The notes beneath the pieces are model-generated. The model ran no database searches. It was not told the origin of the DNA and saw only the letters and a program-made list of their open reading frames with translations. The translations under genes were made by a program, and so were the position numbers. Shown here piece by piece: positions 34,148 through 39,419 of a stretch of 64,000 nucleotides of DNA. The stretch comes from Natranaeroarchaeum aerophilus. GTDB lineage: Archaea > Halobacteriota > Halobacteria > Halobacteriales > Natronoarchaeaceae. The DNA lies in the NCBI RefSeq assembly GCF_023638055.1, contig NZ_JAKRVY010000006.1, positions 62,001 through 126,000 of the forward strand, given 5' to 3'. Each line of letters starts with the position of its first letter. Position 1 is the stretch's first letter.

Positions 34148-35320
34148 TCACGCCGAGGTGGCATTGGCCCCGGCGGAGCCACGTGTCGCGGCCCACGTCA
34201 CGACCGTCCCGATCAGCAATGCAATAGCGAGACCGAGGGTCAGATACATCGCGGCCTGAATATCCACGAGTTCAGCGACGACGCCGACGCCGAGTGGAGC
34301 AAGCGCAATTCCCGTGTACGTCCCGCCGGTCGTCATCGCGCTGATCGGACCGCTGTACTCGGGGCTGGCTTCGACGGCGAACGACAGCAGCGTCGGAAAC
34401 AGCCCGGAGATCAGAAACCCAGCGAGGAAAACCAACATGAAGAGGGCCCATCCACCGATGCCGCTGAACGTGACCAGCAGTACGGGGATCGATGCCAGCG
34501 TGAACCCGAAACTCAGGTAGAGATAGTTCACCCGCTCGATGATCCACGTGTTCAGTACGCGACCGGGGATGTACGCCAGCAGGAACGTCGATAGTAGCAG
34601 GTTAGCGAGGTCCCGCGGAACGATCGTGCTCGCGTAGTAGGGCAGCCACGTAAAGAAGATACCCTCTATCCCGCCGAGAAGTGCCATACAGATTATCGCT
34701 CCGAGCACCGCTGGACGTCGCACCAGCGTCCGTAGCGCGTCCAGTGAGAGCGACTGTTCGTTGTCAGTGCTGGCCGGGAGCTCGGTTCGCCAGATGAGCA
34801 GCCCGATCGGGACGAAAAACAGGCCGAGTATCGCGTAAGTGACGCGCCAGTCCGTCACCGAGAGAACGGCGTTCACAAGCACCGGACCTGTCACCGCACC
34901 GAGCGCCCATGCCAGCGAGTACAGCGCGAAGATCCGCCCCCGACGACTCGGATAGAGATGCGAGAGGATCGGCCGGTCGACGCCGCGGAACGCACCGACC
35001 GCCGCACCCTGTCCGACCATCACCGCAAGAAATAGCCAGTAGACTGGAGCGGCGCTCATCACGAGCAACGAAACGGTCGTCGCTGCGACACCGATCAGGA
35101 GTGTCCGCTTGAGATCGATCCGTCCCGAGACGAACCCGATCGCAAGCACCGCGACGACGAACCCGACCGTCCCGGCGGGCGCAACCAGTCCAAGGAGCGC
35201 TTCCGAGACACCGAACGACGACTGAAAGCTCTCCAGAAGCGCCCCCCGTATCTGCGTCGCGACGGCATCGCCCATCACGAACAGGAAGATCGCGACGAGC
35301 CAGACGCGACGCGAGTCCAT
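34148..35320 (-). CDS. Major facilitator superfamily transporter
   Basis: A 390-residue permease with about 12 membrane helices. The loop between helices 2 and 3 has the MFS-A-like pattern FVSGRIDLKRTLLIG, and the N-terminal half ends near a cytosolic loop (RTELPASTDNEQSLSLD). The substrate is not deducible. It is 109 nt downstream of the FrhB-like gene on the same strand, so a role in sulfur-compound transport is conceivable but unproven. Confidence 0.82.
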   Translation of the reverse strand: MDSRRVWLVAIFLFVMGDAVATQIRGALLESFQSSFGVSEALLGLVAPAGTVGFVVAVLAIGFVSGRIDLKRTLLIGVAATTVSLLVMSAAPVYWLFLAVMVGQGAAVGAFRGVDRPILSHLYPSRRGRIFALYSLAWALGAVTGPVLVNAVLSVTDWRVTYAILGLFFVPIGLLIWRTELPASTDNEQSLSLDALRTLVRRPAVLGAIICMALLGGIEGIFFTWLPYYASTIVPRDLANLLLSTFLLAYIPGRVLNTWIIERVNYLYLSFGFTLASIPVLLVTFSGIGGWALFMLVFLAGFLISGLFPTLLSFAVEASPEYSGPISAMTTGGTYTGIALAPLGVGVVAELVDIQAAMYLTLGLAIALLIGTVVTWAATRGSAGANATSA

Positions 35321-35429: not shown

Positions 35430-36683
35430 TCAACACCACTCCTCGTACTGGTGGACGCGTGCCGGATTGAGCGGCTGAGCCTCCCGATCGGTACCGTCGT
35501 ACGCCTCGTGGTGGGCCGCGTGGGAGATGTCGAGGTCCCCCTCCGGATCGTACTCGCGAGGGATGATGGAGCGGGCACGCTTTGCGTTCCACGAACTGAC
35601 TTTCTCCAGCACTGGCTCCTGTTCGAGGGCTGCGAGTTCGAGCGTGTCTGCAGCCGTCTCGACCGCGCGCTCGCCTCGCTGGGTTCGAGCGAGTAGCGTG
35701 GTCTTCCCGTCGCTACTGCCAACGCTCCCGGCGGAGATATCGGCTGTCCCGCCGACGAAGTCCGCACACTCGTCACAGCCCTTCAGCCCAGCGTGGCCGA
35801 ACGCATCGACGTCCCGGTCGAACAGGACCGCGCCGTCGGCGTCGTAGCCAAAGAGCGTTCCGCCGTCGACATCGAGTTTTGCGACCGTTTCGGGATCGAC
35901 GCCGAGTTCGGCGATCGCATCGCGGAGCCGTCGCGACTCGAACGCGCGGGTACACATCAGCGAGATCGTCAGGACGACTTCGTCGAGTTCGCCCTCGTAG
36001 CCGTACTCCGAGAGCGCGGTGACGCCCTCGATCACACAGGGCGTCCCCACGACAGCAACAGCAGGATCGTCCAGCTCCGAGGCCTCGATCAACTCGGTGA
36101 TCCGACCGGCCTGCATGGTCTGGTTGTAGAAGCTGCCAGCGCTCTCGACCAGTTCGTCGCGGGTCGTCGCCAGCGTGGCCGTACCGTGGAGCGGCTCGTT
36201 GCTCTTGGTGGCGACTACAGCGCCGTCGATCTCGCCCGCGTCGATGAGTTCGGCCAGCAGCGTCGTAACGACGCCACCGTCCTGTCCGGCTGCAGCCACC
36301 GGTTCGTCTGCGGCGCGGGCGCTGTAGGTCGCCCCGACGCCTTCCGGAACCGCCGACTCGACGTCCTCGATCAGGCGCTCGTAGCGCAGGCCACTGCGCG
36401 GGCAGTAGTCCCAGCAGCGCGAGCAGCCGGTGCACATTTTGACGAGGGTCGGCCGCTCCATCTCGCTGTCGATGCCGATGGAATCGGCGGGGCAAGCGGC
36501 GACACAGGTCCCACACTGGGTACAGCGGTCGGATTCGATGACCGCCTCGTCGAGATCGCGGAACCACGTCTTGCCGGGTGGGGCCGCCGATTCGGCCGCC
36601 TGCTCCCGCGGGTCGCCGCCCTTGCTCGGCACGGATCGGTTGCTCGCTGTACTGCTTGGAATACCAGGGTCGCGCTCGGACAT
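35430..36683 (-). CDS. FrhB-type iron-sulfur flavoprotein (F420 hydrogenase/dehydrogenase beta subunit family)
   Basis: A 417-residue protein. After a 45-residue variable N-terminus come two [4Fe-4S] motifs with cysteines at 54, 57, 60, 64 and 84, 87, 90, 94. The C-terminal 300 residues match the FrhB/FdhB family (GQDGGVVTTLLAELID; AVVGTPCVIEGVTAL with a conserved Cys), which bind FAD and usually F420. It starts 1 nt after the stop of the rhodanese-siroheme reductase gene (TGA-T-ATG), so the two are coupled. It probably passes electrons from F420H2 or ferredoxin to that reductase. A CDECADF pair in the C-terminal half may hold a further metal site. Confidence 0.85.
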   Translation of the reverse strand: MSERDPGIPSSTASNRSVPSKGGDPREQAAESAAPPGKTWFRDLDEAVIESDRCTQCGTCVAACPADSIGIDSEMERPTLVKMCTGCSRCWDYCPRSGLRYERLIEDVESAVPEGVGATYSARAADEPVAAAGQDGGVVTTLLAELIDAGEIDGAVVATKSNEPLHGTATLATTRDELVESAGSFYNQTMQAGRITELIEASELDDPAVAVVGTPCVIEGVTALSEYGYEGELDEVVLTISLMCTRAFESRRLRDAIAELGVDPETVAKLDVDGGTLFGYDADGAVLFDRDVDAFGHAGLKGCDECADFVGGTADISAGSVGSSDGKTTLLARTQRGERAVETAADTLELAALEQEPVLEKVSSWNAKRARSIIPREYDPEGDLDISHAAHHEAYDGTDREAQPLNPARVHQYEEWC

Positions 36684-36684
36684 A

Positions 36685-39096
36685 TCAGTTCACCTCACTC
36701 GCTGCTCGGTCACCGTCCTGTACGACCGCGTCCGCACGGGCTTCCCCGCGGATCAGCTGCCGCAGATCGGCGTCTGGCACGCGCTCGGTCCACCCGGAGA
36801 ACGCTTCTGTACCGCCGTCGGCCGCGTACGCCGACACGAGCCGTGTGATCCCGTCGGGTACGTCATCGAGCACGACCGACCCGGCGATCCAGTCGGCGAA
36901 CGTACCCCGGCCGAGATCCCCACCGAGGCCGACGTCAGCGGCGTCTTTCGTCCCCTCCGGCGTTCGTTTGGCCTCGCCGCGCATGGCGACGTCCCCGATC
37001 TGGGGCTGGGCACACGAGGCCGAGCAGCCGGACATGTGGACCCGGACGGCGTCGGGAAGGTCGGACTCGTCGACGCGGTCGGTCTCCGCGAGCCAGGAAT
37101 CGAGCATGCGCGCCCACTCGATCCCCCGTGATTTGGTTTCGACGACGCCGTACTTGCAGAACTCCGCCCCGGTGCAGGTGACGATCCCGCGGGTAAACGG
37201 CCCCGGATCGGGACTGTACCGCTCCAGAAGTGGCTCGGCGAGCAGGTCGTCGAGCGCGTTCTCGCGGACTCCTGCAATGACAACGTTCTGGTTCGCGGTC
37301 AGCCTGAGCTCGCCGCTCCCGTACCGCTCGGCGAGGTCGGCCAGTTCGACCAGTTCCTCGCCCCGCATGCGGCCGGTCGGGAGGTTGAGGCCCACGTAGT
37401 AGCCGTCCTCGGTCTCGTGGACGCCGACGTGGTCGCCCCGGTAGCTCGTGGTGAGGTCCTTCCCGGCGTCCTCAAAGTCGAAGTCGACGTACCGCTCTAG
37501 CTCCTCGCGGAACCCATCGATTCCGTACTCCTCGACGATGAACTTCAGGCGATTGACCGCCGTGTCGATGTAGCTCCCATGCTCGATGAACAGGTCGGCG
37601 ACGGCGAGCGTCAGCGGCTCGACCTGCTCCGGTTCGACGAAGATGTCGAGATCAGTGGCTGCTCGCGGCCCGTCCGAGAGGCCGCCGCCGAGTTTCACGT
37701 GGAAGCCGTCCCGGCCGTCTTTGATAGCAGGCGTAAAGCCGAGGTCCTGGATCTCGCTCCGGCCGCAGTTCTCGTGACAGCCGCTCAGACTCACCTTGAG
37801 CTTGCGCGGCAGGTTCGCATAGCGCTGGTTCCCCTCGAACGCATCGGCGATGTCCTCACCGAGGGACCGGACGTCGGTGACCTCTTCGCCCAGCCCGGAG
37901 GCGGGACAGGCGACGACGTTCCGGAGCGTGTTGCCGCTCGCCTGGATCGTCGTCAGGCCGACCTCCTCGTAGCGGTCCCAGATCTCGGGCATGTCCTCGA
38001 CGCGGACCCAGTGGGCCTGCAGGCCCTGTCTGGTCGTCACGTCGAGGAAGCCGTCGCCGAACTCGGGGTTCTGCTCTGTACCGCCGTACTCGCCGGGTGC
38101 GCGAGCGAACTCGTCGACGATCTCGCCGTAGGTGCGGGCCTGCTCGGCAGTCAGGACGCCGTTTGGCACCTTCGTCCGGAGCATGAAGTAGCCGTCCTGT
38201 TTCTGGGTGTACAGCCCGATCAGGTGGAGGCGGCCGAAAATGTCCTCGCCGAGCTCGTGAGGAAGCGCCTCGAACCCGTCGGCGGCGACCGCCCGGACGC
38301 GCTCGTAGAGCCGTTCGGGGTCCCAGTCGGGCGACTCTGCCCGAACCCAGTCCGTAAGACTGCCCTCGTAGAAGCTGACGTCCTCGTAACCGAGTTCCGT
38401 CAGGACCGCGAACGTGTGGCTGAGCCGCCGGGCGGTGTTACAGTAGAGGACAATCGCCGTCTCCGGAGAGAGACCCTGCTCGTCGAGGATCGACTCGATC
38501 TCGTCTGTCGGCCGGAGCCGACCATCGTCGTCGACGAAGCGCTCCCAGCTCAGCTGGGTGGCGGTCGGCACGTGGGAGTGGTCGTACTCCGCGGCAGTCC
38601 GTGTGTCGACGACCTGTGTCGTCTCGGCATCGACCGCCGCCTCCACGTCATCGCGATCGGCGAGGAGCTGTGCGTCCGGTTCGTCGGCGTCGTACTCGGC
38701 CGGCTCGGGGTCAACCGGATCGGCCGTGACGCCGAGTCGATCGCGCAGCGCGTCGAAGCCCCCATCGACCAGATACAGGTTCCCGCCGTGACCGTAGACA
38801 GCCGCGGTCAGCAGGAATCGGGCGGCGTAGACCCCGTCACCGCCGTCGTAGGCGACCAGCGTCTCGCCGTTCGAGATTCCGACGTCGCCAAGCAGCGTCT
38901 CGAACGCCTCCCGGCCGGGTAACATCCCCGTCGCGACGCTTGAGGGATCCCGGACGCTATCGAACGGGACGTTTACTGCCGCAGGGACGTGGCCGACATC
39001 CCGGTACTCTCGCCGTTCGCGAACGTCGACGAGCGTCACGTCGCTGTGTTTCTCGACCCACGACGGATCGACAAACACCGGGCTGTCGAGCGTCAT
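36685..39096 (-). CDS. Rhodanese-rhodanese-siroheme sulfite/nitrite reductase fusion
   Basis: An 803-residue three-part enzyme. Residues 1-125 are a rhodanese domain lacking its active cysteine (AYDGGDG). Residues 140-260 are a second rhodanese with Cys219 in LYCNTARR. Residues 280-790 are a ferredoxin-type sulfite/nitrite reductase. Its C-terminal half has the siroheme-[4Fe-4S] ligands C641-x5-C647 and C691-x3-C695. Its N-terminal half keeps LPRKLK and a partial set, Cys397 and C440HENC444. The rhodanese could split thiosulfate so that the released sulfite is reduced to sulfide by the attached reductase. It is the second gene of the unit uORF-reductase-FrhB. A strong SD (GAGGAGGG) precedes the ATG by 6 nt. 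Confidence 0.87.
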   Translation of the reverse strand: MTLDSPVFVDPSWVEKHSDVTLVDVRERREYRDVGHVPAAVNVPFDSVRDPSSVATGMLPGREAFETLLGDVGISNGETLVAYDGGDGVYAARFLLTAAVYGHGGNLYLVDGGFDALRDRLGVTADPVDPEPAEYDADEPDAQLLADRDDVEAAVDAETTQVVDTRTAAEYDHSHVPTATQLSWERFVDDDGRLRPTDEIESILDEQGLSPETAIVLYCNTARRLSHTFAVLTELGYEDVSFYEGSLTDWVRAESPDWDPERLYERVRAVAADGFEALPHELGEDIFGRLHLIGLYTQKQDGYFMLRTKVPNGVLTAEQARTYGEIVDEFARAPGEYGGTEQNPEFGDGFLDVTTRQGLQAHWVRVEDMPEIWDRYEEVGLTTIQASGNTLRNVVACPASGLGEEVTDVRSLGEDIADAFEGNQRYANLPRKLKVSLSGCHENCGRSEIQDLGFTPAIKDGRDGFHVKLGGGLSDGPRAATDLDIFVEPEQVEPLTLAVADLFIEHGSYIDTAVNRLKFIVEEYGIDGFREELERYVDFDFEDAGKDLTTSYRGDHVGVHETEDGYYVGLNLPTGRMRGEELVELADLAERYGSGELRLTANQNVVIAGVRENALDDLLAEPLLERYSPDPGPFTRGIVTCTGAEFCKYGVVETKSRGIEWARMLDSWLAETDRVDESDLPDAVRVHMSGCSASCAQPQIGDVAMRGEAKRTPEGTKDAADVGLGGDLGRGTFADWIAGSVVLDDVPDGITRLVSAYAADGGTEAFSGWTERVPDADLRQLIRGEARADAVVQDGDRAASEVN

Positions 39097-39161
39097 TGCT
39101 GTCCCTCCTCATAGCGGTCCGTTGACCACCGTGTCCATACGCCGGATAGTAGCTCGGTCAT
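39093..39161 (-). CDS. 22-residue leader ORF coupled to the reductase fusion
   Basis: The ORF runs from ATG 39161 to TGA 39093. It encodes MTELLSGVWTRWSTDRYEEG plus two glutamines. The stop overlaps the reductase start as ATGA, and the last codons contain the Shine-Dalgarno GAGGAGGG used for the reductase. The two Trp and mixed charge look like a real peptide. It may be a small protein or a translated leader that opens the downstream ribosome site. Confidence 0.55.
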   Translation of the reverse strand: MTELLSGVWTRWSTDRYEEGQQ

Positions 39162-39419
39162 GGCTTGTCATCCGTTTCGTTCTCCTCTGTATAATGCAGC
39201 TACTGTAACGGGAAACCCTTCCCCTGCTCCGGGAAAGGCGCACGAATCCGATCTACTTCCGACGACTGTTTATCCCGACAAATGAACTCTTTTTATTACT
39301 GTCTCTGGGCGAGAATCAGCAGACACGAACGGGAACGATCTAACTACCCAGCGTTAGGGTTATCGTCGTAGTAGCCGGCAACAATTTCTGGAAAACGAGG
39401 AACAGGAGTCCTGCGGGAG
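39162..39419 (-). promoter_or_regulatory. Upstream region of the sulfur-reductase unit
   Basis: A gene-free 258-nt stretch. On the minus strand two TATA-like elements occur, AATAAAAAGAG (about 39286-39297) and GGATAAACAG (about 39265-39275). Either would leave a leader of roughly 75-110 nt before the 22-codon ORF, unusual in this mostly leaderless genome. The leader has an imperfect CCTTTCCC/GGGAAGGG hairpin near 39205-39230. Confidence 0.4.

Follow-up and report, generated by a model that had tools for sequence, protein, structure and literature searches.

A rhodanese-fused variant of the predicted F420H2-dependent assimilatory sulfite reductase in haloarchaea

Little is known about where haloarchaea obtain the sulfide from which they make cysteine. 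Sequenced haloarchaea have been reported to lack the sulfate route, and a conversion of thiosulfate to sulfite and further to sulfide by a separate sulfurtransferase and a sulfite reductase has been proposed (PMC3402447). A locus of Natranaeroarchaeum aerophilus raises the question whether both steps might be joined in one protein. On a stretch of 64,000 nt (GCF_023638055.1, contig NZ_JAKRVY010000006.1, positions 62,001-126,000 of the forward strand; hereafter the window), a tandem rhodanese is fused to a siroheme reductase and followed by the gene of an FrhB-type flavoprotein, and this fusion makes the proposed link physical. Sequence and gene order identify the pair as a variant of aFsr. Under this name, an assimilatory sulfite reductase that depends on F420H2 was predicted for haloarchaea from genomic context (Susanti & Mukhopadhyay 2012, PMC3448663), and PMC9295563 mentions it, likewise as putative. 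The parts of this rhodanese-fused aFsr belong to an ordinary family and the combination is new: the rhodanese-NirA fusion and the FrhB pairing of aFsr are recognised here as one system.

The fusion gene (36685-39096, minus strand, 803 aa) was assigned as aFsr-alpha with an N-terminal rhodanese by Pfam and NCBIfam domains, PDB sequence matches (1zj8, 2akj, 3b0g, 3aax and 1uar) and an AlphaFold model. Pfam identified two rhodanese stretches (PF00581), two NIR_SIR domains (PF01077) and NIR_SIR_ferr half-domains. The protein contains eight cysteines in total, at positions 219, 397, 440, 444, 641, 647, 691 and 695. Its tandem rhodanese comprises residues 1-258 (38323-39096, minus strand); domain 1 has no cysteine, and Cys219 (codon 38440-38442) is located in the loop CNTARR of domain 2. 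The reductase part shows the two-fold A-B-A-B architecture of NirA and aSir. Its first half (residues 284-545; 37462-38247, minus strand) carries the predicted substrate residues R356, R392, K432 and K434 as well as an extra triad, C397, C440 and C444, and its second half (residues 546-785; 36742-37461, minus strand) the siroheme-[4Fe-4S] ligands C641, C647, C691 and C695. The alpha model, built from an alignment without two plasmid rows, had a predicted local distance difference test score (pLDDT) of 90 and a predicted template modelling score of 0.84. It matched tobacco and spinach nitrite reductases and Mycobacterium tuberculosis NirA with a structural Z of 45, and its rhodanese part matched thiosulfate sulfurtransferases with a Z of 28.

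The aFsr-beta gene (35430-36683, minus strand, 417 aa) starts 1 nt beyond the alpha stop codon. It consists of a Fer4 dicluster followed by FrhB_FdhB_N and FrhB_FdhB_C domains. An alignment of 23 sequences revealed 12 invariant cluster-type cysteines at three sites, two of them in the 2x[4Fe-4S] ferredoxin part (36387-36545, minus strand; C54/57/60/64 and C84/87/90/94) and the third in the flavin/F420 part (35628-36329, minus strand; C216, C244, C303 and C306). The beta model was of moderate quality, with a pLDDT of 61 and values below 50 for residues 1-99, which hold the ferredoxin part. Upstream of the fusion lies a leader open reading frame (ORF) of 22 codons, MTELLSGVWTRWSTDRYEEGQQ (39093-39161, minus strand), whose TGA shares 4 nt (ATGA) with the ATG of the fusion. 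A preliminary description of the locus had listed these three minus-strand ORFs with their overlap and abutment, two rhodanese domains with Cys219 in the second only, the four siroheme-cluster cysteines and a 417-residue protein with an FrhB-type flavin/F420 domain. The ORF check, the domain search, the cysteine list and the PDB matches agree with all of this. Its eight cluster cysteines in the FrhB protein have to be raised to twelve at three sites instead of two, and to its four reductase cysteines the unmentioned triad of the first half has to be added.

To see how widespread this arrangement is, we searched 391 Halobacteria genomes, 126 of which had a match to the FrhB protein. Fused loci, sought with a query piece spanning rhodanese and reductase and separated from the remainder by a wide score gap, numbered 31 in 30 genomes. 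In every one of them (the 30 first compared and a 31st) the FrhB gene stands directly behind the fusion. Since gene order and abutment recur across the fused loci, the arrangement of the module is not due to chance. Clustering of the ORFs over 30 fused loci left only the two module genes as common to all. A NirA-type gene adjoins FrhB in 79 of 80 contig loci, the exception (L061; L numbers denote compared loci) beginning at a contig edge. Without a rhodanese, the NirA-FrhB pair occurs widely among haloarchaea and was also found in Rubrobacter, Acidimicrobiales and on one Chloroflexi contig. A quick tree of the reductase region, with only two outgroup rows and support from the Shimodaira-Hasegawa-like approximate likelihood ratio test, placed the fused proteins in one clade (99), with all unfused FrhB-paired enzymes as its sister group (96). 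It separated 70 aFsr rows from the NirA and Sir of N. aerophilus with a support of 100.

The comparison with known systems led to the same placement. Like the aFsr of PMC3448663, whose Fsr-N tree takes in Rubrobacter, the pair combines an aSir/NirA-type alpha subunit bearing the CX5C...CX3C motif with a separate, adjacent Fsr-N-type beta subunit (ferredoxin plus FrhB), and it groups with the unfused FrhB-paired enzymes; here, however, alpha carries an N-terminal tandem rhodanese, a word that does not occur in the main text of that paper. The same fusion, as far as its description allows a match, was recorded in 2024 as cluster 195.2, comprising 19 of 529 halobacterial NirA (PMC11237513). The passage on that cluster does not mention an FrhB partner, in contrast to the invariant one found here. 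Fsr of group I from methanogens (7np8, 7npa) likewise has ferredoxin and FrhB domains in its F420H2-oxidising half, the sulfite-binding Arg/Arg/Lys/Lys and the siroheme cluster motif. It is, however, a single polypeptide whose reductase is Dsr-like and contains an inserted ferredoxin, whereas two genes, a reductase of the NirA/aSir type without insert and a rhodanese are present here. The preliminary description had proposed a split, haloarchaeal analogue of Fsr. Its pairing of a sulfite-type siroheme reductase with an FrhB-type F420H2 oxidoreductase is supported, but the reductase is not Dsr-like as in Fsr, and the pair had already been predicted as aFsr. M. tuberculosis NirA (1zj8), a siroheme sulfite reductase, agrees with the reductase part in fold, with a Z of 45.2 over 507 residues, but its chain of 566 residues lacks the rhodanese region and is annotated as ferredoxin-dependent, not FrhB-linked.

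The triad of the first reductase half distinguishes aFsr further. Of 30 fused aFsr, 29 have C397, C440 and C444, as do 79 of 79 unfused ones; the genome's NirA and Sir lack them. A profile alignment of the two halves paired C397 with C641, C440 with C691 and C444 with C695, so three of the four siroheme-cluster ligands recur at the pseudo-symmetric site. We hypothesise that a cluster might be bound there, in the non-catalytic half; the triad gives F420-linked siroheme reductases a signature that can be tested directly.

Based on the domain make-up, conserved catalytic residues, invariant pairing and clade structure established here, we propose, with moderate confidence, that the module encodes an F420H2-dependent, two-subunit assimilatory sulfite reductase whose rhodanese cleaves thiosulfate and releases sulfite beside the reductase. 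The flavin of beta would take a hydride from F420H2, and the electrons would pass through three [4Fe-4S] clusters to alpha. There, sulfite would be reduced to sulfide at the siroheme-[4Fe-4S] centre (C641/C647/C691/C695) with the help of R356/R392/K432/K434. The tandem rhodanese would cleave thiosulfate at Cys219, retaining the sulfane sulfur as persulfide and giving up sulfite next to the reductase, while a cellular thiol would free the persulfide sulfur as sulfide, or this sulfur would be passed on. The net reaction would be S2O3(2-) + 2 thiol electrons + 3 F420H2 -> 2 sulfide. F420H2-driven reduction of thiosulfate-derived sulfite for sulfide supply is the most likely role; that sulfite passes directly from the rhodanese to the reductase domain is weakly suggested. 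If the proposal is true, a fused enzyme leading from thiosulfate through sulfite to sulfide answers the question of the haloarchaeal sulfide source, F420 gains a defined job in these organisms, and two successive sulfur steps joined in one protein become a testable case. A more far-reaching version, which we regard as unlikely, sees the complex as a thiosulfate:F420 oxidoreductase. Both sulfur atoms of thiosulfate would end as sulfide, toxic sulfite would be held between the rhodanese and siroheme sites, an additional, so far undescribed iron-sulfur cluster in the first half (C397/C440/C444) would receive electrons from the F420 subunit, and translation would be set by the leader, conserved in position and variable in sequence.

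Several observations weigh against the proposal. At least 18 genomes with the fused gene retain an unfused aFsr too, and the fused copy may therefore have a narrower role. No thiosulfate transporter was found linked to the locus, and a literature search returned no assay of any aFsr. Rhodanese domains act on several sulfur donors, and FrhB relatives can use ferredoxin. FsrII of ANME, a related F420-linked siroheme enzyme, turned out to be active on nitrite and not on sulfite when supplied with F420H2 (PMC9295563).

This last precedent leads to the rival view of an F420H2-dependent nitrite reductase with the rhodanese as an unrelated side function, and the label of unfused aFsr-alpha at NCBI ('ferredoxin--nitrite reductase'), the highest structural Z, obtained for nitrite reductases and M. 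tuberculosis NirA, and a nos cluster adjoining the locus in Natronococcus occultus point in the same direction. The active site argues otherwise. Four basic substrate residues of sulfite reductases have been named for Fsr (PMC10229431); R356, R392, K432 and K434 are invariant in 109 of 109 aFsr, fused and unfused, as is the C-x5-C...C-x3-C motif with its four cysteines. K434 corresponds to Asn226 of tobacco nitrite reductase, which is Asn in the wild type and Lys in the N226K entry 3vlx. Two further NirA-type enzymes are encoded in the genome: the Nas-linked NirA (L147), next to a molybdopterin oxidoreductase, has the nitrite-type Asn at this position, and the third enzyme has Lys. In addition, aFsr of 20 bacterial loci is preceded on its own strand by a gene for CysH, the 3'-phosphoadenosine-5'-phosphosulfate (PAPS) reductase. 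Since the Lys-x-Lys is invariant and the bacterial operon reads cysH-aFsr, sulfite is strongly favoured as the predicted substrate, and a nitrite reductase appears improbable. In 7 actinobacterial loci an F420 ligase gene precedes the cysH-aFsr operon; with CysH and F420 ligase both upstream of bacterial aFsr, sulfite and F420 are indicated together. N. aerophilus has an F420 ligase as well. The top structural and sequence matches of beta are F420-oxidising or F420-reducing subunits: Fsr (9tn7/7np8) and F420-reducing subunits (8riu/8rja) in the PDB, and F420-linked FrhB subunits and Fsr in Foldseek, where plant HCAR was also matched. HCAR of plants is ferredoxin-dependent, and on this ground the FrhB protein might be a ferredoxin-linked flavoprotein and the sulfite reductase be fed by ferredoxin or another donor. 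Given that the closest solved relatives of beta act with F420, and given the ligase in the bacterial operons and in the genome itself, we consider this highly improbable. Of the two donors left side by side by the preliminary description, F420H2 has strong backing and ferredoxin is the less likely one. The idea that beta is a subunit of an F420-hydrogenase or an FdhB was not favoured, as it is the genome's single FrhB and its neighbours include no such partner.

The sulfur source was approached from the rhodanese side and from the genome. CNTARRLS with Cys219 is invariant in 30 of 30 fused proteins, and the arrangement of an inactive first domain and a catalytic cysteine in the loop of the second is that of a thiosulfate sulfurtransferase. 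Within the genome, the paralogue closest to the fused rhodanese (L173; 48% identity) is a tandem rhodanese that stands alone, has the same CNTARR loop and is not fused to a reductase. In the N. aerophilus genome (98% complete), PAPS-reductase-family matches were only weak, with no clear CysH, and ATP-sulfurylase was not found; a sulfate route to sulfite therefore appears to be absent, which makes thiosulfate plausible as the source of sulfite. Of the 29 fused-gene genomes checked, 28 had no strong CysH match. CysH absence as a mark of the fusion was rejected, because most genomes with unfused aFsr lack CysH too. A different activity of the rhodanese is the alternative to be taken most seriously, though it remains rather unlikely: it might handle persulfides or 3-mercaptopyruvate or, run in reverse, remove sulfite as thiosulfate, so that the module would chiefly be a sulfite detoxifier or a persulfide enzyme. 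Methanogen Fsr is a sulfite detoxifier (PMC10229431). Mercaptopyruvate sulfurtransferases and EanB match the model nearly as well as thiosulfate sulfurtransferases do (Z 26-28). Moreover, CNTARR differs from the classical loop CRKGVT and from the CG[ST]G loop. On the other hand, its two adjacent arginines would suit an inorganic dianion such as thiosulfate, and a way from sulfate to sulfite appears to be missing in the genome. We therefore retain thiosulfate as the rhodanese substrate with moderate confidence, the loop not being decisive. The thiosulfate feed of the preliminary description accordingly stays plausible, and the cleavage itself an inference. In the same genome (C1), the stand-alone rhodanese belongs to a divergent pair with loops CNTARR and CRIGER (L173 3211-5031); in several Natrialbaceae (L058, L063, L080 and others), unfused aFsr is followed downstream by the same pair.

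The third part of the module is the leader. In 23 of 30 fused loci, the fusion is preceded by an ORF of 12-45 codons that begins with ATG and ends in a TGA overlapping the fusion start (ATGA or GTGA). Among 52 control genes, taken from annotated plasmid stretches of haloarchaea and having a long gap in front of them, 3 showed this; the fused loci are related and the start codons were picked by script. The coupling of all three ORFs claimed in the preliminary description is supported. A GGAGG ribosome-binding-like stretch lies within the last codons of the leader. In a group of 13 Natrialbaceae loci the leader ATG is homologous and the length takes several values between 35 and 45 codons, always in frame. 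The peptide sequence is not conserved, and the ratio of synonymous to non-synonymous changes gave a weak signal (four pairs; frame 0, 19.5/122 versus 24.5/331; other frames about equal). As the position is conserved and the peptide is not, the leader points to translational coupling rather than to a working peptide. A cysteine attenuator was rejected, since the leaders contain almost no cysteine and share no sequence across genera. A similar ORF of 22-26 codons precedes some unfused haloarchaeal aFsr genes.

Upstream of the leader, about 90 nt (39155-39245) are near-identical between the window and the sister genome and more conserved than the leader ORF; they are probably a promoter or operator. 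Across the Natrialbaceae fused loci (L120-L133), a conserved block (about TTACCCGTACGCGTAGCTGAAAGGGG) lies upstream of the leader ATG, and several of these loci have the 8-nt palindrome TACGCGTA there, a possible regulator site.

Regarding the neighbourhood, citrate synthase, DUF7490, a pyridoxal phosphate enzyme, SepF and a histidine kinase recur in the 13-locus Natrialbaceae group; they were rejected as linked sulfur genes and look like plain synteny. At the N-terminus, unfused haloarchaeal aFsr-beta proteins can carry a long extension of low complexity that contains cysteine-rich stretches such as CGRSDESCGCGRGCGC and has no Pfam match (L160 8467-10191 of Haloferax mediterranei, L156, L157 and L058); the beta of the window lacks it. 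A third FrhB group, about 42% identical and with no siroheme reductase adjoining within the stretch, occurs at L149 6801-8084 and in L150/L159, a Halopiger xanaduensis plasmid whose gene table lists no gene at that position. Finally, a major facilitator superfamily transporter gene with weak TsgA similarity (34148-35320, minus strand) lies 109 nt downstream of the FrhB gene and could share the transcript of the module. It is equally placed in the sister genome (L118 8722-9894) and, in the loci compared, confined to the genus.

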